A stretch of 51,194 bases of DNA from Sphingobacteriia bacterium. GTDB lineage: Bacteria; Bacteroidota; Bacteroidia; B-17B0; Aurantibacillaceae. The position numbers were made by a program, and so were the translations under genes. The notes under the pieces were generated by a model that was not told the origin of the DNA, searched no databases, and saw only the letters and a list, made by a program, of their open reading frames with translations. The DNA lies in NCBI GenBank assembly GCA_009927275.1, contig RFNG01000043.1:1-51194 (forward strand), in the 5' to 3' direction. This document shows positions 14,001 to 47,360 of this stretch, piece after piece. How positions within the stretch are numbered: the stretch's first letter is position 1; the number at the start of each line of letters is the position of its first letter.

Positions 14001-15070
14001 TCAAATGCATTGGCCAATACCGGAAAATTTGAGGATCCCGTTGCGCCGTAAAGGCATAAATTATTATTGTTATCTACTATCATACTCGAAACCACCTCGT
14101 AATTTGAGCCACCCAAATAAGTTGAATACAATAAGGCATTTCCATTGGCATTGTATTTAGTAATTACCACATCCGTGCCATTTTGAGGACCGTTAAAAGC
14201 AGTTTGAAATGCACCTAGTGTGGTAGGATAACCGACACTGTATGCGGTGCCACCGGCATATAAATTTCCTGCTGCATCGTAGGTTGCTGTCATTCCAAAA
14301 TTATCTGCTGTAGATCCCGATTGTGCAGCAAATACTAATACCGGATCAATAATTAACGGGCATGATGGATTATAGCCATTTGGAAAATCAAAACTCAAAC
14401 AGTGTTTTTTTAATGTATAATTACATGTTACAGTTTTTACAATGCCGTTAATAAGCTGATACGCGTAAGGTTTCTGCTCAATAATGTCGCCGAGATTTGT
14501 TTGAATAATTAGCCTGCCCTTATCAATACGTATATGATCAACACCGGTATATTGCATTTGTATTACAGATGGTGAATGACCGGGATTCACTGTAAATGTG
14601 TACTTTATACCCTGCGTTAAACCTGTTAACTCCACTGCTATACCGGGATATAAATTTGGATTTACAATACGTTCGTAGTGGTGTATATTATTAACCCATT
14701 GTTGCGGATTATTACCTAAATAATAATTCACATAATCTGAACTTTGCAAATAGGTATTCCATGAATTAAGTGACGACGCATTTAAAAATTCTGTTTTATA
14801 GGCATAATGTTGCAAAGAAATATTTTTAGGACGCTTTGTAATTCCTGCATGATGCCATTGTCTGTATGTTTTAGCATCATAAAAATGATACGTCCATGAA
14901 TTGTTTTCAATAAAAACTGCTCCGCCATCCACTTGAGCCCTATAAAGAATCCCTGCAGGCCATTGACCTTTATTTTCTGTAAATCTAACAGTTGGTACTG
15001 ATGCAAACATAACATACAAGCCAAAATTTGTAACTGCAAGCACTAGCCATATACATAGCCTAAATTTCAT
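11042..15070 (-). CDS. Giant secreted PKD-repeat protein with T9SS type B (gliding-associated) C-terminal domain
   Basis: A 1342-residue secreted protein. A signal peptide (about residues 1-23) is followed by a domain starting FTENKGQWP of the type found in large Bacteroidota surface proteins. A long propeller-like section then has repeats such as LLYSTYLGGS, LLGSTYIGGS and LLFSTFIGGSQNDCGNSI (SBBP-like, about residues 250-700). PKD/Ig-like modules follow. The last 85 residues (NTFTPNRDGINDVLLV ... VYNRWGERVFET ... VYGWYIEAE) form the type B sorting domain. Its ATG overlaps the TGA of the SPOR gene, so the two are probably coupled. It likely acts at the cell surface in adhesion or matrix; the ligand is unknown. 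Confidence 0.9.
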   Translation of the reverse strand: MKFRLCIWLVLAVTNFGLYVMFASVPTVRFTENKGQWPAGILYRAQVDGGAVFIENNSWTYHFYDAKTYRQWHHAGITKRPKNISLQHYAYKTEFLNASSLNSWNTYLQSSDYVNYYLGNNPQQWVNNIHHYERIVNPNLYPGIAVELTGLTQGIKYTFTVNPGHSPSVIQMQYTGVDHIRIDKGRLIIQTNLGDIIEQKPYAYQLINGIVKTVTCNYTLKKHCLSFDFPNGYNPSCPLIIDPVLVFAAQSGSTADNFGMTATYDAAGNLYAGGTAYSVGYPTTLGAFQTAFNGPQNGTDVVITKYNANGNALLYSTYLGGSNYEVVSSMIVDNNNNLCLYGATGSSNFPVLANAFDNSFNGGPALSFVMNGTSYSSGTDIFVSKFNSTGSQLLGSTYIGGSQNDGVNHVNHLTFIANTYWEYYIDSLQYNYGDQYRGEIQVDRYNNIFVCSSTRSSDFPTLNAFDNTLGGKQDAIVFKFNPSLNQLLFSTFIGGSQNDCGNSILIKESDGSVYFTGGTCSSDFPVTSAAYSNQYLGGKSDAFLVHLNASGNQIIASTYFGTSDYDQSYFVQSDSKNRIYVFGQSMGSFPVLNTSTITPLHNPGRHQFIARFNAALSQLNKATVFGNYTTQVDIAPSAFAVDRCSNIYLSGWGGNIITNGPPLQNMPLMAATQSTTDGFDFYILGMDSSWVLQYGTYFGGGLSQEHVDGGTSRFDARGKIYQSACAGCGGHDDFPVTPGAWPNSPGNPNHSGNCNNGVLKIDFQLPLAISTINTNTLSGCSPFTATLSNATPPLGANATFTWYLANAQTNTTLLNPNLTFTAAGQYTVALVVKDPAACNIKDSSALVFNVWPSPIVQFTTQHSNCSSTVAVLVNTLTGQTYNLNWGNGLQTNTVTTQQLNTYSVSGIYSVNLTGTNVYGCSATQFQTVAIIQFSPTLPTGGSVCAGQQLTLEASGGNTYLWQPSLGLSNYTNGTTVFNGSVNTQYTLTVQQQTLGQTCQTSQTLVVDVKPSPIAQFNYSVSSCGGGVNFFNASSADVQKWYWQFNATQTSTVQNPYFFFSGGGVKLVKLIVTNAFGCSSAFQTTLNAGVAPQLAINSGSYICSGDSALLFASGGQSYTWQPLEDFKNPFLASGFVKPLTSTSYTVIIKANTLSSACLYTLTTQVTVDYISQVKPITAVSNPVKIRQGETSTLSYLGDPGAFIYWMPATQPVSGYTVNASPQITQIYTVQISKGQCIETRTVLVEVYSDACNPDVIFIPNTFTPNRDGINDVLLVRSNALQSIYFAVYNRWGERVFETRNLNSGWDGTINTSNAEQGVYGWYIEAECFNGRKTFKKGNVTLLR

Positions 15071-15312
15071 TTGTTAAATAGGCGTGTTTTAAAATGGTAC
15101 TCAACAATAAAAGCATCGGTATTATAACGTTTTTTAAAATCTTGCAGGGCCTTAATAGCTTCTTCTTTTGTTGTGTAGGCACCGTAAAGAATTACCTTAA
15201 AATCCGATTCTTGCTGTAATGTGTATGTTTTAATACCCAGTTGTTTTACAAAAATTCTAATGCGTTTATTACTGGCTTGTTCAAAACGACCAAATTGAAT
15301 GCTAAAACACAA
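15067..15312 (-). CDS. SPOR-domain protein, C-terminal part (frameshifted)
   Basis: This reading frame encodes a SPOR-type segment: SIQFGRFEQASNKR, then FKVILYGAYTTKEEAIKALQ, and a final strand AFIVEYH. SPOR domains bind denuded septal peptidoglycan. There is no good start: the only nearby initiator is TTG at 15312 and the frame is closed by a TAA a few codons upstream. Adding one T to the run at 15304-15307 (read as AAAA on the plus strand) joins it to the 15902-15246 frame, giving one protein of about 278 residues. Its TGA overlaps the ATG of the next gene. Confidence 0.75.
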   Translation of the reverse strand: MCFSIQFGRFEQASNKRIRIFVKQLGIKTYTLQQESDFKVILYGAYTTKEEAIKALQDFKKRYNTDAFIVEYHFKTRLFNK

Positions 15313-15902
15313 GGATCTTTAAATAATCGCGGCGTACGTTGATGCTGTTTTGGTTTTTGAATGGCTACGGCACCCTCTGCCCTGTCTTGTTTTAAAATTC
15401 TTGAGGTAATGCGCAAGGTGTCTTGTATTTGAGATGCATTTACATAACTTAAAGGCACGCTGGATTCGGTAGGTTTTGCAAGTTGTAAGGAAGTTGTTAT
15501 GGCAGGCTTTACAAAAAAAGATTCAAATCCGTAATCAAGTTTATATTTACCAAAACTATTTTTTGAAAACCATTGGGCTTGTATAAAAAGGGTATCCCTG
15601 AGGGGTTTAATGACACCCGTTAAACGTTTATAAAAATTTACATTGTAAAAGTTTACTGCATTGGGCTGAATTGAAGTATTTGGCGCATTTAGTGCAATCC
15701 ATGAAAATGTAGGAGAATTATAAATTGTTAAGGTGTTTTGGGAGTTTGCCGAAGTATCAGAAGATTGAATTATTAACGTATCTGTAATACCCAATTGCAG
15801 GGAATCACTAAATTTTAAATTCCATTGCGAAAAAAGTTCTTGAGAAAACACATTACATGCGCTAAGTATAAAAATAACAAAGCCCACAAGGCATCTTCGC
15901 AT
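15246..15902 (-). CDS. SPOR-domain protein, N-terminal part (frameshifted)
   Basis: I chose the ATG at 15902 because it begins a clear signal peptide (MRRCLVGFVIFILSACNVFSQ); an earlier ATG at 15956 would overlap the SDR gene and weaken the signal. The body is a beta-rich domain of unknown type (about residues 22-170), then a basic linker. After FKDPCV this frame runs into unrelated residues and stops, while the -1 frame continues as a SPOR domain. The frame break is at the T run at 15304-15307. It is either a real 1-bp deletion or a sequencing error. Confidence 0.75.
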   Translation of the reverse strand: MRRCLVGFVIFILSACNVFSQELFSQWNLKFSDSLQLGITDTLIIQSSDTSANSQNTLTIYNSPTFSWIALNAPNTSIQPNAVNFYNVNFYKRLTGVIKPLRDTLFIQAQWFSKNSFGKYKLDYGFESFFVKPAITTSLQLAKPTESSVPLSYVNASQIQDTLRITSRILKQDRAEGAVAIQKPKQHQRTPRLFKDPCVLAFNLVVLNKPVINALEFL

Positions 15903-15927
15903 ACCTATAAAAATACATATTAATAAT

Positions 15928-16701
15928 CTAAAGTGAAAGCGTACGCCCCCCATCAACAGGCAAATTAATGCCGGTTATATATGAGGCCGCTTCACTACAT
16001 AAAAAAGATACTACCGATGCTATTTCTTCGGGTTTTGCAAACCGACCTGTAGGAATTTCAGAAAGCATTTCAGCCTCAATAGCTGAAACTGATTTTTGTT
16101 CTGTATTTGCTTTATTTTCAATTATTTGTTTAAGACGTGAAGTTAGTGTAGCCCCGGGCAATACGTTATTTACCGTAATTCCAAAAGGCGCAAGCTCACG
16201 CGATAAGGTTTTTGACCAATTTGCAACAGCTGCACGAATGGTATTACTTACACCCAATCCCGGTAGAGGTTGTTTTACAGAAGTTGAAATAATATTAATA
16301 ATGCGTCCAAAGCACTGTGATTTCATTGAAGGAACTACTGCCTGTACCAAAATTTGATTTGCAATAACATGTTGTTCAAATGCCTTTCGAAACGCATCTG
16401 GAGTAGCCTGCATAATTGAACCAGGCAAGGGACCACCGGAATTATTTATTAAAACCGAATACGGACCGTTTAAACGACATTCTTCTTGAATTGCAGAAGA
16501 TACCAATGAAGATGAATTTAAATCAATTTGTAAATGCCTAAAACGATTTTCGGTGTTTACGCCTTCAACCGTTTTAAAATCTTTTAAATCAGGCTCTGAA
16601 CGCGAAATTGCAAGAACGGAATATCCCTTTGAAAGCAGTTCAAGCGAAATTGCTTTTCCAATGCCCTGTGAACCTCCACAAATAATGGCTTTTTTATGCA
16701 T
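15928..16701 (-). CDS. Divergent short-chain dehydrogenase/reductase (SDR) family protein
   Basis: A 257-residue Rossmann-fold SDR. The cofactor motif GGSQGIG (residues 9-15) and NNSGG (86-90) are present, and the C-terminus (LCSEAASYITGINLPVDGG) is typical of FabG-like enzymes. At the active site Ser129 is present, but the expected Tyr and Lys are Ser142 and Arg146 (GVSNTIRAAVANW). I recall this NTIRAAV version in other Bacteroidota SDRs, so it looks like a subfamily trait rather than a mutation. Its substrate is unknown. It lies 8 bases after recX and 25 before the SPOR gene, probably in one operon. Confidence 0.85.
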   Translation of the reverse strand: MHKKAIICGGSQGIGKAISLELLSKGYSVLAISRSEPDLKDFKTVEGVNTENRFRHLQIDLNSSSLVSSAIQEECRLNGPYSVLINNSGGPLPGSIMQATPDAFRKAFEQHVIANQILVQAVVPSMKSQCFGRIINIISTSVKQPLPGLGVSNTIRAAVANWSKTLSRELAPFGITVNNVLPGATLTSRLKQIIENKANTEQKSVSAIEAEMLSEIPTGRFAKPEEIASVVSFLCSEAASYITGINLPVDGGRTLSL

Positions 16702-40084: not shown

Positions 40085-40747
40085 CTATTGCACTTTTAAT
40101 TGTAATAAGCGTTGTTGGTAATAGGGTACCAAATCTATCGGTAACTCTAATATAGGTTCCCATTCTGATGCTTTTCTACGTTTATACTCTAAAAACGGTT
40201 TTAGGTTACGATTTTGTTCGGAATCTAAATATTGACTTTCCCTTTTAAAATCTTCATCCTGTTCGCGTTCAGCCTGTTCTTGTTCCAATAATCGCGTTAC
40301 TATCTCTTGTTGACGTCGCAAAAGTTCCGGGCTAAGCTGTTTATGTACAAGCTCGCGTTCTGTTTGTTCCATCAATTGACTCAAATCTTGTCCGGCATTT
40401 CCAGAATGCTGCTTCATGCGCCTTAATGCTTCTTCAAGTTGCCTTCGGATAACCTCCTGCTGAGCAGCCATTCGGGCAAATTGCTCAGAACTTCCAACAC
40501 CGCCCTGCCCCTGGCCTTTTTTAGAAGAGGGATCTTGTTGCTGGGAAGTGCCTTTTTGTCCGCCCTGCTGTTTACCCATTTGCTCTTTTAATTGACGCAT
40601 TTGCTCATTTAACTGCTCTTGTAATTTTCGGGCTTGTCCTAATTGACCGGTAGATCCCGGATTTTTGCCTTTACTTTTACCAGGTTTTTTACAAGCACCG
40701 TTTTTAGAAGATTTACTTTGCATTTGTTGACGCATTTGTTGTTGCAT
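40085..40747 (-). CDS. DUF4175 family protein, C-terminal part (frameshifted)
   Basis: A Gln-, Lys- and Gly-rich low-complexity region followed by a helical region (QEVIRRQLEEALRRMKQ) and the end NRNLKPFLEYKRRKASEWEPILE, which matches the C-terminus of DUF4175 proteins. Upstream of its ATG the frame reads S-L-E-A and meets the preceding frame at Q-E. Adding one A at plus-strand 40759-40760 joins it to the 40753-42213 segment. Confidence 0.8.
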   Translation of the reverse strand: MQQQMRQQMQSKSSKNGACKKPGKSKGKNPGSTGQLGQARKLQEQLNEQMRQLKEQMGKQQGGQKGTSQQQDPSSKKGQGQGGVGSSEQFARMAAQQEVIRRQLEEALRRMKQHSGNAGQDLSQLMEQTERELVHKQLSPELLRRQQEIVTRLLEQEQAEREQDEDFKRESQYLDSEQNRNLKPFLEYKRRKASEWEPILELPIDLVPYYQQRLLQLKVQ

Positions 40748-40752
40748 GGCTT

Positions 40753-42213
40753 CTAAACTTCTTGAAGTAAAACCGTGATAGCGTTTAAATCTGTCATTGC
40801 ACTTTGCATATACAGCCTGGCGTGATTAGGTTCGCGATCAACCAATTTTGTTACAGATTGTGAAATGTATTTTTGAATTCCGTTTAAATGTTTTCGAAGT
40901 TGTGGTGCAATTTGTGGCGCTTTTCGGCTTAACGCATATAAACTGTCAGATGCATTTTTAACCTCCCCTCGTAACTGACTTTGTAAACGTATTACCTCGT
41001 TATAGGAGGGCTGTGCCGGATTAAGCGTTTTAGATTGCTCCATTATTTTTTCTTGTCGAAATGAAGCTTGTAAAAGCGCGTCCATGATTTCACGAAGTTG
41101 TTGAATATTAATTTCCTGTTGGTTTTCATCAGCTGTACTTGCTGCTTCATCCATCGTTTTTTGCATTTCAGACATTTCATCAGCAGCCTGGTTTTGCTGT
41201 TGCGAGGCCCCTTTAGTATCGCCATGCTGCAAATCTTGTTGTGCCTGATTCATAGATTGTTTAATTGCGTGTTCTGATTTTGAAGTTTCGGGCACATCCA
41301 TGGGTTGCGGAAGCATGTTGTTTTCGTCTTTTATACGATTAAGCTCTTTAAGTGCGTCCTGTATCTGATTTTGTATGTTTTGATGCTGTTGCTTTAATGT
41401 TTCCTTAGATTCAGGATTTGATTTTTGAGTTTGTTCTGCCAATGAACGTAGTTCTGATTCAAATTGTTTTAATTGGTCTCTAATATGTTCGTATTGTTGG
41501 TCAAGTTGTAAGGCTTTTAACTGATCGCGTTGAAGATCAAGCTCGTTTTGAAGCTCATCTTGTTTTAATTTTAACTCATCAAGTTTTTCAGCAACAGCCT
41601 CACGATTCTGTTGCTTCATCAATGCTTTAATCTCTTCAATCATTTTTTTCAACTCTGGAGTTAAAATCTGTTCTAATAATGTTTCAATTTCTTTTTGACG
41701 TTCTATTAATGTTTGGTCATCCGCTAACGAATTGCGCTCTGTTTGTTGCCTTTGTTGATCTTGAACCGATTTTACCTGCTGTTCAAGTTGATTAAATTGT
41801 TCTAAAATATTTTGTACACGTTTTTGATCTTGAGCGTCAAACTGTTGCTTTTGTGCCATTTCACGTTTAAGTGTTTCAATTTCACGTTTTATATTTTGCG
41901 CCTGTTGTATACCTTGGTTAAAGCTATTATCTGTTTGTTGCTGTATTTGACGCTCTTGCTTAAGTATGTCATTTATGGTGGGAATTACATATTCAAATGT
42001 ATTAGACGTAACAGTTTTTGGACCGTTTACAGCATCGTTGTCTGAAACACTGAAATAATACTGAATTCGGGAGCCAGGCTTTAAATCATAGGTACTTAAA
42101 TCTACGTGGTGATAAAACACGTGCTGACCTTTTGAAGCATTAAACGCAAGCTGCTGTGTTTTTAATTTAAAATCTGTTTTTGGATGTGCAGCGTACAAAA
42201 CAGATAATTTCAA
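40753..42213 (-). CDS. DUF4175 family protein, central part (frameshifted)
   Basis: A large Gln/Glu-rich coiled-coil region (about residues 80-330) preceded by a beta domain with YFSVSDNDAVNGPKTVTS, typical of DUF4175. The frame is open upstream of its ATG, reading about 28 more codons (to about 42302) with good DUF4175 sequence (IYVNGVYTDDYGFSDLK), so the ATG at 42213 is not the real start. It continues the 43472 frame after one missing A near 42309-42310 and loses frame again near 40759. Confidence 0.82.
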   Translation of the reverse strand: MKLSVLYAAHPKTDFKLKTQQLAFNASKGQHVFYHHVDLSTYDLKPGSRIQYYFSVSDNDAVNGPKTVTSNTFEYVIPTINDILKQERQIQQQTDNSFNQGIQQAQNIKREIETLKREMAQKQQFDAQDQKRVQNILEQFNQLEQQVKSVQDQQRQQTERNSLADDQTLIERQKEIETLLEQILTPELKKMIEEIKALMKQQNREAVAEKLDELKLKQDELQNELDLQRDQLKALQLDQQYEHIRDQLKQFESELRSLAEQTQKSNPESKETLKQQHQNIQNQIQDALKELNRIKDENNMLPQPMDVPETSKSEHAIKQSMNQAQQDLQHGDTKGASQQQNQAADEMSEMQKTMDEAASTADENQQEINIQQLREIMDALLQASFRQEKIMEQSKTLNPAQPSYNEVIRLQSQLRGEVKNASDSLYALSRKAPQIAPQLRKHLNGIQKYISQSVTKLVDREPNHARLYMQSAMTDLNAITVLLQEV

Positions 42214-42296
42214 ATCTGAAAACCCGTAATCATCGGTATATACTCCGTTTACATATATTTGACCGGGATGTAAACTATCCTGCTCTGATTCAACTG

Positions 42297-43472
42297 TTAA
42301 TGCAGGGATTGATCTGCTAAAACCTGAACCTGCATATTTACAGAGTCTGCATGAACGCTTTTATAAAGTGCATTTAAACGTATGGCCATTGTAAAAGGGT
42401 TTAAAACATACTCTGAAAATGTAAAGTTGTGAGCGGCATCCGGTGTTATTTGCCTTAGAGATTGACCATTATAAACTTGACAATGGGATGTGTTTTCAAT
42501 ATTTATAAACCATTCCATTTGAGATCCCTGAGGAACTACTACTGAATTTGAATACTCCATATCGTATTGCGGTAAATGTGTATACCGCGGCGGTGATATG
42601 CGGATGTTTATAGTTTTAAATTGAGGCCGCGGTAATACCCGTAATACAAAAGATTCAGAACTGCGGTCGGCATACCGAAATCTAAACATTTTATTTTGTT
42701 GTACATCCGAAAAAATAAATTGAAAGGTGTCTGAGTTTAAACGCTGCATTCTATGAAAAACGCCATCTACATCAATGGTTAAATCCGAGGGCATAACAGC
42801 ACCCTGCGTTTTAATTTGTAATAAAAAATTAGTATTATTTTGACATTCCAGCGGATTACTTAAAATTTGAATTCCAAACGGTAAAGGTTTTGGAAATTCA
42901 CGATTGTAAAACACTATTTTTTTTGTACCTAACACATACACATCCGGCCACAACAAAAATGAAATTAAAAATAAAGTATAAAGCAATAATGAAATTTTAA
43001 GAAAATACCCGATTTTTTTAAATTCAATAGCCTTAGAAAAATCGTACCCTTCAAATGATTGTATACGCTGCTCTAATCCCTGCGAAACTAACACATTATT
43101 GGGTTGCATAAACAACATTTGTTCAAGTTGCAAGGTGTTTAACAAGCGATCGCTTATACCTTCAATATGGTTACCAATAATTTGAGAAGTTTTTTCAATG
43201 CTCATTTGCCGAGACTTTAACAAATAGGCAATTAACGGCATACCCATCCAATAAAAAAAACCCAAAAGTGTAATGCTTAAATTAGAAATCAACAGCGTAA
43301 GTCTCCAAACTGGTGAATCTAATCTGTAACCAATTAGGCTATAAACAGTAAATAATATTACAAGTACAATGCCAAACTTTAAAGTACCACGTAATAAACG
43401 CTCTAAAAATAATCGCTTACGAAATTGTACTATGTTATTTTGTAAATGTAAAAAAGACCTGTCGGAATGCAT
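42297..43472 (-). CDS. DUF4175 family protein, N-terminal part (frameshifted)
   Basis: The true start of the DUF4175 gene. It has two N-terminal transmembrane helices (about residues 30-55 and 60-85), a third near 155-175, then the beginning of the periplasmic beta domain (FKTINIRISPPRYTHLPQYD). It stops early after VQVLADQ. With one base added here and one near 40759, the three segments make a single protein of about 1129 residues, the normal size of the family. DUF4175 proteins are inner-membrane proteins of unknown function. Confidence 0.82.
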   Translation of the reverse strand: MHSDRSFLHLQNNIVQFRKRLFLERLLRGTLKFGIVLVILFTVYSLIGYRLDSPVWRLTLLISNLSITLLGFFYWMGMPLIAYLLKSRQMSIEKTSQIIGNHIEGISDRLLNTLQLEQMLFMQPNNVLVSQGLEQRIQSFEGYDFSKAIEFKKIGYFLKISLLLYTLFLISFLLWPDVYVLGTKKIVFYNREFPKPLPFGIQILSNPLECQNNTNFLLQIKTQGAVMPSDLTIDVDGVFHRMQRLNSDTFQFIFSDVQQNKMFRFRYADRSSESFVLRVLPRPQFKTINIRISPPRYTHLPQYDMEYSNSVVVPQGSQMEWFINIENTSHCQVYNGQSLRQITPDAAHNFTFSEYVLNPFTMAIRLNALYKSVHADSVNMQVQVLADQSLH

Positions 43473-43498: not shown

Positions 43499-44272
43499 TT
43501 AACGCTTATATGTACAAACCGAATCCTTAAAAATATTAAAAATATGCTGGGGACCAATATATAGATGTTGTGCCTTTTGGGGAAGTGAAACCGAATCCAA
43601 TACGGCCGTAGTAAACACATACCGAAATTGGTATGTGTCAGTAGTGGATATTATATCCTGTGCCCCTATGGTTATGTAATCAACATTTGGAAAGGAGATT
43701 TGCTGTTTTAATGCACCGAACTGATCAAAGACCCAAATACCCAAATTTTTAAAAAGGACATACAAAAAAGAATTGTATTCACTCATAACTAGAGGCTCAA
43801 AATAATGCCTATGATACTGGGCTAAATTTCCAGTTTTTACCATACAATTACCAAATTTGTTAAGCTTTAGCAGTTCGGCATTTGCCTGATTATAAATCCA
43901 AATACCTTGCAGTTGACTGGAACATACCAGTTCAACTTGAGGATACCCTAATTCATCTAGCCGTAATGCTTCTGCTTTTTGTACCAACAAATTATCTAAA
44001 AATAATACGGTTTGATAGGCCTTAAAATATAGTACTGTAGACATTGGATTTTGTATATCCATTTGGGTTAAGGCACCATACTTTAACGTAGAAAAAAACT
44101 GCTGACGAGGCATTTGAGCGCCTCCTTTAATAAGTTTATTTTGAGTATAACAATACCAGTTTTGTAAATGATCTTCACGGATTAAATCAACGGTACCCTT
44201 TACAATACATTGTGACCTGAGTTGCATTAGAATTAAACTGCAAAAAACAAATACAATACTACTTACTTGCAT
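43499..44272 (-). CDS. Secreted protein of unknown function between GH3 and DUF4175
   Basis: A 257-residue protein with a signal peptide (MQVSSIVFVFCSLILMQLRSQ). The body is beta-rich with repeating motifs such as GIWIYNQANAELLKLNKFG and LGIWVFDQFGALKQQISFPNVD, suggesting a small propeller-like fold. I recognise no family. It overlaps the GH3 gene end by 10 bases and precedes DUF4175 by 26, so it is very likely coexpressed with both. Confidence 0.72.
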   Translation of the reverse strand: MQVSSIVFVFCSLILMQLRSQCIVKGTVDLIREDHLQNWYCYTQNKLIKGGAQMPRQQFFSTLKYGALTQMDIQNPMSTVLYFKAYQTVLFLDNLLVQKAEALRLDELGYPQVELVCSSQLQGIWIYNQANAELLKLNKFGNCMVKTGNLAQYHRHYFEPLVMSEYNSFLYVLFKNLGIWVFDQFGALKQQISFPNVDYITIGAQDIISTTDTYQFRYVFTTAVLDSVSLPQKAQHLYIGPQHIFNIFKDSVCTYKR

Positions 44273-45780
44273 GTGGATATATTAAGCAATTCCTCGGCCA
44301 TGGTTCGGGTATTTGAAAGACGCGGTACTTTATGCTGTCCGCCAAGTTTATGCTTTGATTTTAACCATTTTAAAAAGGTATTTTCAGATAGTATTTGAAG
44401 TTTTGGAAAACTTAATACAAAATCATTATATCGTTTGGCCTCGTAATCGCTGTTGTTTGATTTTAAAAATTGATCTACTAAACTCATAAAGTAAGATGGA
44501 TGTTCGGGCACTTTGTCAAATTCAATTAACCATTCATGTGCACCAGAGTGTTGGGACATGTATATGGGAGCTACTGTATATTCACGCATGCGACTATGGG
44601 TTTTTTGACAAGCATATGCCATGGCTTCATCTGTATTATGAATCATAAGCTCTTCACCAAATACATTTAAATATTGTTTTGTTCTGCCACTTATAATAAT
44701 TCTATAAGGATGCAAAGATGTGAAACGCACAATATCTCCAATTTGGTATCGCCACAAACCTGCATTGGTTGTAATTATTAATGCATAATCGGTATGTAAT
44801 TTAACACCCGACAATGGCACAACCGGCGATACCTTGGTACTATGATGCCCCATTACCTCCTGAAATTCATAAAATATGCCATAATCAAGCATTAAAAGCA
44901 TATCGTTTGCATCCCGTTGGTCTTGTATACCAAAAAAACCTTCAGAGGCATTATAAACTTGTAAGTACCGTAATGGTTTTAAACCATTAATACGATCAAA
45001 ATGTTCACGGTACGGCGTAAACCCAACGCCGCCATGAAAATAAACTTCTAAATCTGGCCAAACCTCACATAATTCTTTAGATTGCCGTACTTCTAAAACA
45101 CGATTTAATAAAACCAACATCCAACTGGGAACACCGGCCAAACTGGTTACATTCTCACGACACATTTGCTGCGCCATGTGTTCAAGTTTTTCAGACCATT
45201 CATCCATTAAAGCAATAGATCGGTCCGGTGCTCTAAAATATTCGGCCCAAAAAGGTAAATGCTGAATTATAATAGCACTTACATCACCTTGTAAACTGGT
45301 AAAAGTACCACTGCGATGTGATTTTAAAGAGCCTCCCAATGCTAAATTTTTACCCGTAAACAATTTAGTTTCAGGATAATTTGAGCAATATAACGTTACC
45401 ATATCCATGCCCGCTTTATAATGGCAATTTTCTAAGCTTTCAGAGCTTACAGGTAAAAATTTACTTTTATCGGTAGTTCCACTACTTTTGGCAAACCATT
45501 GAATTTCTCCAGGCCACAATAAATTTTGAGACCCCTGTTGCATAAGCGTAATATATGGCTTTAACTGTTCGTAATCCTGTAATGGAATTTGTGCACTAAA
45601 CTGATCGTAATTGGTAATATGCTCCATATTAAACAACCTGCCAAATTCAGTTTTTGAACCCTCACGAAGCAATTGTTGCAACCATTCTTGCTGAACATCA
45701 AAAGGGTATTTAATAAATAATTCAATTTGGTGCATACGTTTTTTCATTAACCAACTTGCTATTGAATTAAGTATGCTCAT
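44263..45780 (-). CDS. GH3 family acyl-adenylate/amidosynthetase-like protein
   Basis: A 505-residue member of the GH3 family, first known from plant auxin- and jasmonate-conjugating enzymes and widespread in Bacteroidota. The ATP-binding loop is SSGTTDKSKFLPVS (around residue 105), followed by VYNASEGFFG and the adenylation motif YQIGDIVRFTSLHPYRIIISGRTK. The bacterial substrate is unknown. Its ATG overlaps the TGA of the upstream PolX-like gene (ATGA). Confidence 0.9.
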   Translation of the reverse strand: MSILNSIASWLMKKRMHQIELFIKYPFDVQQEWLQQLLREGSKTEFGRLFNMEHITNYDQFSAQIPLQDYEQLKPYITLMQQGSQNLLWPGEIQWFAKSSGTTDKSKFLPVSSESLENCHYKAGMDMVTLYCSNYPETKLFTGKNLALGGSLKSHRSGTFTSLQGDVSAIIIQHLPFWAEYFRAPDRSIALMDEWSEKLEHMAQQMCRENVTSLAGVPSWMLVLLNRVLEVRQSKELCEVWPDLEVYFHGGVGFTPYREHFDRINGLKPLRYLQVYNASEGFFGIQDQRDANDMLLMLDYGIFYEFQEVMGHHSTKVSPVVPLSGVKLHTDYALIITTNAGLWRYQIGDIVRFTSLHPYRIIISGRTKQYLNVFGEELMIHNTDEAMAYACQKTHSRMREYTVAPIYMSQHSGAHEWLIEFDKVPEHPSYFMSLVDQFLKSNNSDYEAKRYNDFVLSFPKLQILSENTFLKWLKSKHKLGGQHKVPRLSNTRTMAEELLNISTCK

Positions 45781-47360
45781 GTTCTATTAAAAAAATTGAA
45801 TATTTGTTGTGTATCGAGTGCATTTAAACATTGTGCTGATGATAATAAGGTTTTTTGAGCCATACATACCCCATAAAACATATCATCTATTCCTGCACAT
45901 GAATGTGCATCGGGATTAAGTGCAATCCAAACCCCCTGCTCTAAGGCATAATCAATCCAACGCCAGTCTATATCTAACCGGTAGGGATTTGAATTAAGTT
46001 CAATAGCAACATTGTGTTGTGCACAGGCTTGAATAATTTTAGGAACATTGACCGGATATCCCGAACGGTTTAAAAGCAAACGACCGGTTAAATGACCTAA
46101 AATTCGAGTTGACGGATGTTCTATGGCTTTAATTAAACGGCTGGTAGCCTTGGCTTCATCCATTTGTAAGCCGCTATGTACCGATGCTATAACAAAATCA
46201 AAGCTGTTTAAAATATCGTCGTCATAATCTAATGAACCATCTGCACGAATATCAGATTCAATTCCCTTAAACACAAAACAATCCGGATGCTTTGTATTCC
46301 ACATTTCAATTTCGCGCCATTGATCATACAGACGATTAAGTGTTAAACCATTTGCATAAAATGCCGATTGGGAATGGTCTGTAATGCCTAAATACGAATA
46401 GCCTTTATTTATAGCATATTGTGCCATTTCTTCAATACTGTTTGCGCCATCGCTGTAAGTTGTATGTACATGTAAAACACCTTTGAGTTGATTGCTGTCA
46501 AGCGTTTGAGATGCATACCGTGCCAAATCTTGTTTTTGTTTAACAGCATCTCGTCGTGTCGGCGGCACATAGGCACAATCCAGCAGGGCATGAAGTGTTA
46601 TTTCATCAGCTTTGAGGTGTTGATGTAAATGCAGTTCTAAAACATCAAGGTACAATTCCGGACCGATGGTTTTTAAAAGGTTATAGCCCCAATCGTCTGC
46701 ATTAGATACAACTACCTTAACAGGAACCGTTAGCGGTATGGTGCTAATTGCATTTTGAAATACAAGTTCGTCTGAAACCAAATACTCAATACAATCTATC
46801 ACTTCTAAATGCCTGGCAAAACTACCCGTAACGGCATACTTAAAATGCGGAATGGATTTAAGTATCGTATCAATACATACATGCTGCTTATAGGCTTCTG
46901 AAAATAAATACTTATTATTATTTTGTTTTAAAAAATGTAGTTGTTCTAAAATTTGTGTTTGTGTTTTAATGCCAAATCCTTTAAGTGCTGAAAGTTTTAA
47001 ATCTTTACAGGCCTGTTCTAAAGCAACTACATCCTCTATGCCTAAGTCATCGTATATCAAGCGCCATTTACGAGGACCTACACCTTTAATTTTAAAAAAA
47101 TTAAGTATTCCTGATGGTATTTCGTTTTTAGCGTGTTCTAATTCTGTAAATACGCCTTGTTGTAAGGCATTTTTAATCCATATTCGGGCCTGATCTGAAA
47201 ATAAGTGGTCATAGGTGCCCGCTAACACAGCATCTGTACTTAACGGTTTTAGCGTTAATGCAATTTTTTGTAATGCTTTAACTTTAAAAACAGAGGCTTT
47301 TTGCCAGTCGCGAATTGCAGCCAAAAGGGCAATAGCTTTGGATAATTCTCGGGTATTCAT
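45777..47360 (-). CDS. polX: PolX-like protein: HhH plus degenerate Pol X domain plus PHP domain
   Basis: A 527-residue protein with the domain order of bacterial PolX. Helix-hairpin-helix motifs are IKGVGPRK (91-98) and LKGFGIK (126-132). The nucleotidyltransferase site GSFARH (179-184) is followed by VIDCIEYLV, where the family has a D-x-D pair; here the aligned residues look like Cys190 and Glu192, so polymerase activity is doubtful. The C-terminal PHP domain is intact: HVHTTYSDG (297-305), ITDHS, SVHSG, GHLTGR, ELNSNPYRLD and NPDAHS, as expected for a 3'-5' exonuclease. Start and stop overlap both neighbours. Confidence 0.85.
   Translation of the reverse strand: MNTRELSKAIALLAAIRDWQKASVFKVKALQKIALTLKPLSTDAVLAGTYDHLFSDQARIWIKNALQQGVFTELEHAKNEIPSGILNFFKIKGVGPRKWRLIYDDLGIEDVVALEQACKDLKLSALKGFGIKTQTQILEQLHFLKQNNNKYLFSEAYKQHVCIDTILKSIPHFKYAVTGSFARHLEVIDCIEYLVSDELVFQNAISTIPLTVPVKVVVSNADDWGYNLLKTIGPELYLDVLELHLHQHLKADEITLHALLDCAYVPPTRRDAVKQKQDLARYASQTLDSNQLKGVLHVHTTYSDGANSIEEMAQYAINKGYSYLGITDHSQSAFYANGLTLNRLYDQWREIEMWNTKHPDCFVFKGIESDIRADGSLDYDDDILNSFDFVIASVHSGLQMDEAKATSRLIKAIEHPSTRILGHLTGRLLLNRSGYPVNVPKIIQACAQHNVAIELNSNPYRLDIDWRWIDYALEQGVWIALNPDAHSCAGIDDMFYGVCMAQKTLLSSAQCLNALDTQQIFNFFNRT

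Follow-up and report, generated by a model that had tools for sequence, protein, structure and literature searches.

Three adjacent minus-strand reading frames in contig RFNG01000043.1 of a Sphingobacteriia bacterium (assembly GCA_009927275.1; positions 1 to 51,194 constitute the window referred to below) would together make up one DUF4175-like protein, with a frame change at each of the two junctions. This arrangement raises the question of whether the gene is interrupted in the bacterium itself or only in its deposited sequence.

Layout of the gene and its two breaks

The pieces and the junctions between them, in the order in which they would be translated, are as follows:

42297..43472, minus strand: first piece, 391 aa; hydrophobic N-terminal stretches (judged by eye) and start of the conserved protein; out of frame after ADQ
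42299..42310, minus strand: break 1, in the one-base-lost direction, past the conserved DQ
40753..42213, minus strand: second piece, 486 aa from a TTG within an open frame of 535 aa; middle of the protein
40753..40761, minus strand: break 2, in the one-base-lost direction, past LLQE
40085..40747, minus strand: third piece, 220 aa from an ATG; conserved C-terminal part

A single protein is matched jointly by these frames, with the switch falling past ADQ at about 42308 and past LLQE at about 40757. In the family alignment, the frame change at the first site comes directly past ...VQVLADQ, where the family pattern is DQxP, and that at the second comes past ...LLQE, where the pattern is NESLEQMQ. 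Aligned with 29 relatives (a contig end truncates one of them), the first piece fits as far as DQ, the second from the next P to LLQE, and the third from SLEAM. By homology, both breaks are point changes, each placed within about one codon. The second piece includes a long Q/E/K-rich stretch that appears coiled-coil-like by eye.

The coding signal follows the same path. Scored in 90-base bins with a hexamer model trained on the long open frames of the same genome, every bin from 43420 to 40091 has one positive frame and two negative ones. The first frame scores 2.9 to 11.8 from 43420 to 42341; the signal moves to the second frame in bin 42340-42251 and to the third in bin 40810-40721. The frames, the order in which they come and the two junctions, as described in an earlier note made from the letters of the DNA, are thus confirmed by the frames themselves, the family alignment and the coding score. 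That note had also proposed that one A be added at each site; homology fixes the break codon in both cases, but the letter A cannot be derived from it.

The gene in relatives

When 60 genomes, that of the bacterium included, were searched with the second piece, 59 gave a match, the exception being G057. One open frame of at least 1088 aa is present in 55 of the 58 relatives with a match, and the shorter frames in the others measure 881 aa (G008, at a contig end), 907 aa (G012) and 669 + 548 aa on two contigs (G002). From 228 loci found, 80 named Bacteroidota ones were kept, and 79 of these show no break anywhere in the match. In the remaining one (L175, 2501-6048), the DUF4175-like copy is also broken. 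The three pieces are collinear in all 15 relatives whose loci were fetched, with a HATPase gene next in each of them, and no sister locus carrying the window's piece alone was found in genome_contigs or viral_contigs. Because relatives possess the gene in one frame, the split is not an inherited one; the finding that by the earlier note would have refuted its reading, close relatives with the same three-way split, was looked for and did not appear.

The family label needs some qualification. All four relatives scanned match PF13779 (DUF4175), with E values from 5.4e-18 to 2.1e-10, and the second piece is homologous to the relatives, with E down to 9e-65. In contrast, the pieces themselves reach the model only through the first, at E 0.23 and 9.8 bits, below the 27.3 cut-off; neither the second nor the third piece matches PF13779, nor did a PF13779 search of the whole genome yield a match. 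The assignment to DUF4175 made in the earlier note accordingly holds by descent and not by the model's own threshold. With all three pieces in order and the HATPase neighbour shared, the gene is the DUF4175-like gene of Bacteroidota relatives. The term DUF4175 was absent from the literature turned up for DUF4175 or Bacteroidetes, a search that papers with DUF4175 alone may escape.

Similar breaks in the window and elsewhere in the assembly

The genes around the broken one had been described as intact. This is correct for the immediate neighbours and too generous for the window as a whole, in which another gene looks broken:

15070..15974, minus strand: probable second broken gene, consisting of an upstream frame (15249-15974) and a SPOR-domain frame (15070-15318), with the break near 15300

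The one-base frame change in this gene is in the same direction as those in the DUF4175-like gene. Its second piece matches Pfam SPOR and its first piece matches nothing, so the join was read by eye. Also within the window is a PolX-like protein (45777-47360, minus strand) that contains HHH and PHP domains and no polymerase domain (Pfam, E 0.001); of the 15 relative loci fetched, four contain it, with identities of 38 to 42%.

In a sample of 660,035 bases of the genome, which includes the window and of which 35,584 bases were withheld, 13 breaks are supported by homology. Two are those of the DUF4175-like gene, and the rest lie in atpD, purH, sucA, rluD-like, rluA-like, PHO4, EamA, pyruvate dehydrogenase E1 and pyrG genes and in the genes for a 263-aa family protein and a PorP/SprF protein. 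The direction is that of one lost base in 11 of the 13 and the other direction in two (sucA and PorP/SprF).

Among these genes, atpD and pyrG are generally indispensable. In atpD (L073, 10369-11918), the match to the solved beta subunit 5cdf ends at residue 90 in the first piece and resumes at 90 in the second, which has a single match in the genome; the atpD frame measures at least 454 aa in 37 of 38 relatives with a match. In purH (L053, 327-1897), the initial half of the MGS domain lies in a short frame, which is followed by one of 446 aa, where 38 of 40 relatives have at least 505 aa. The two adjacent pyrG frames (L097, about 17736), of 431 and 145 aa, correspond to residues 3-407 and 397-532 of the protein in the control relative G026. 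Searches of the genome for another copy of atpD, purH or pyrG found none.

The remaining cases rest on domain content or on comparison with G026. The sucA gene (L081, 15311-18176) is cut close to where its E1 domain begins and EamA within its first domain, the first EamA piece falling below the Pfam cut-off. In the rluD-like, rluA-like and PHO4 genes, adjacent frames hold complementary parts of one Pfam family. Pyruvate dehydrogenase E1, the 263-aa family protein (L072) and the PorP/SprF protein (L073) are broken relative to G026. The first of these is the least sure of the 13 breaks and could be a real split: G026 has one 666-aa frame and the second piece here lacks a start near the junction, while the alpha and beta domains recognized by Pfam could, taken alone, mean two genes.

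Of the 44 listed junctions of the genome, 21 were scanned with Pfam, as were 10 of 15 control junctions. Complementary parts of one family were found at three of the 21 (the rluD-like, rluA-like and PHO4 junctions named above) and at none of the 10 controls scanned; at the control pair L122 (15637), each piece matches rotamase models, but the parts matched overlap. For EamA, atpD, purH, sucA, an aldose epimerase and both junctions of a UvrD-type helicase, Pfam recognized either a family that is cut or consecutive domains of a single protein, and ordinary neighbours with different families were seen at four of the 21 (L049, L050, L034 and L089 at 3857). Pfam gave no decision at the ActB (two), ActF, amidotransferase, glycosyltransferase and SPOR junctions. 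These junctions, together with those of the epimerase, the helicase, a PD40-type protein and an adhesin, were left out of the 13. Additional breaks, that of the window's SPOR-domain gene included, could be made out by eye only. The names ActB, ActF, rluD-like, rluA-like, amidotransferase and PD40-type are ones that we presume to be appropriate.

Specificity of break detection

In a scan for frame switches from sequence alone, the adjacent pairs that lacked a start codon numbered 34 of 215 in this genome, 12 of 79 in G026 and, across 14 other relative loci, 11 of 71. Such a scan does not separate the genome from the controls and is thus unspecific, so that homology was required. Translated searches (tblastn) with the open frames of G026 as queries covered 67,101 bases of the bacterium's genome and revealed four distinct break places; those with the 14 other loci covered 38,441 bases and revealed the DUF4175 site, as two neighbouring records. 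Against these five distinct places stand none in G026, either in 28,011 bases covered by the 14 loci or in 61,884 covered by the open frames of the broken genome. At the rate of the latter, about four breaks would be expected in the control, an estimate that is approximate in that the bases covered by the two runs per genome may overlap. The filter applied to these searches caught site 1 and missed site 2.

The comparison yields a rough break rate of one per 20 kb, at which two breaks in one 3.4-kb gene would be uncommon for any given gene, yet across a genome this large such a case is to be expected. Breaks are thus present elsewhere in the assembly and absent or rare in the assemblies of relatives, as indel error leads one to expect on both counts. 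Ribosomal RNA genes could have revealed errors outside coding DNA. No match to 16S or 23S rRNA was found in the genome (G000), although it is rated 99.3% complete; the rRNA searches gave a match in only 7 of 25 and 8 of 25 genomes, most of the others being without one too.

Alternative explanations

Conceivably, the gene died recently, through two real deletions in a long-branch lineage with a small genome. At 2.29 Mb, the genome is indeed smaller than those of genus-mates rated at least 90% complete (2.5 to 5.7 Mb), and the second piece shares about 28% identity with genus-mates, against about 65% within that group, a gap somewhat larger than that of the intact neighbours. However, several intact neighbours are nearly as diverged (32 versus 63% for the TPR gene, 32 versus 64% for the gene at 43499, and 39 versus 66% for the PHP gene), and others are less so (43 versus 66% for HATPase and 62 versus 76% for GH3). 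The lineage is long-branched, with the DUF4175-like gene at its fast end and somewhat more diverged than its intact neighbours. RpoB is about 90% identical to that of the genus, while for most proteins of the DUF4175 region the divergence far exceeds that among genus-mates.

The gene itself does not look decayed, because the coding signal is continuous over both junctions and 106 of 168 near-invariant residues are retained, including those on either side of both breaks (a count that leaves out the out-of-frame tails). Moreover, atpD and pyrG, single in this genome as far as the searches go, are broken in the same way; gene death is not credible for these two, which counts against it for the DUF4175-like gene. 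We therefore regard a dead gene as improbable. Of the two explanations offered in the earlier note, sequencing error or a recently dead gene, the former is the one favored.

A second possibility is real biology, in which a ribosomal or transcriptional frame change at many sites allows the genes to work as written. Breaks in generally indispensable genes, mostly in one direction, are what such a process might leave, and the sequence GGTTTTA lies three codons upstream of the break at both DUF4175 sites. Its role as a slip site was considered and dropped: it lies near only 3 of the 18 junctions and is frequent in intact frames, with 147 occurrences in 317 long open ones, and slippage at that point would cost the protein its conserved DQ at site 1 and its E at site 2. 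Nor did the 18 junctions, which were placed by hand and seven of which are known by eye only, have any 4- to 7-mer in common beyond chance, the strongest being GTTTTA in five of them, a level reached among 6-mers in 53 of 500 random sets. The shared slippery motif to be expected of programmed frameshifting is thus absent from the junctions. Genome-wide recoding is unlikely, and there is very little chance that frame changes of this kind operate at many sites. Equally hard to credit is a bacterium that truly lacks bases in many ordinary genes, atpD and pyrG among them, and reads through them by a frame-restoring mechanism that needs no motif.

Weakest of all, and scarcely to be entertained, is a genuine division of the gene into three proteins, each translated separately, for although the third frame has an ATG 8 bases past the first base of the site 2 stop, nearly all relatives have a single frame, the nearest listed start of the second frame is a TTG located 86 bases past the initial base of the first stop, and the second piece, if made on its own, would be devoid of the N-terminal hydrophobic stretches.

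Origin and meaning of the breaks

The breaks and their direction, the intact relatives and the like breaks elsewhere, in genes for which the searches gave no second copy among others, are direct observations. Because the same slip hits other genes, some of them usually indispensable, the fault most likely lies in sequencing or assembly. It is very probable that the deposited consensus holds residual single-base deletions and that the gene is intact in the cell. In the living bacterium, one intact open frame would encode a membrane-anchored DUF4175-like protein, its membrane location being suggested by the hydrophobic stretches seen by eye. One base would be absent from the consensus at each of the two sites, the single-base deletions having presumably stayed uncorrected in the assembly, and raw reads would be expected to give continuous frames. 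The cause would then be sought in the sequencing platform or the assembler. Runs of one base average 3.06 in length at the 18 junctions versus 2.81 at random coding positions, a value reached by 214 of 1000 random sets. Run lengths are thus not significantly raised, and the homopolymer signature usual for errors of the long-read or pyrosequencing type is absent or weak, which counts against the error reading.

A comparable situation is described in the Kastor paper, according to which indels in draft assemblies fragment bacterial genes (PMC12007338). There, as here, many unrelated genes in a single bacterial assembly have their frames shifted by single-base indels, with deletions prominent; the errors were detected through reference genomes and read information. 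In contrast, the assemblies treated in that paper are long-read ones in which deletions follow homopolymers, whereas here the homopolymer signal is not significant.

Overall, the broken DUF4175-like gene is most likely an ordinary artefact rather than biology. The rated completeness of 99.3% does not expose frame breaks, and short or broken frames in this genome should not be taken for pseudogenes or split genes unchecked.
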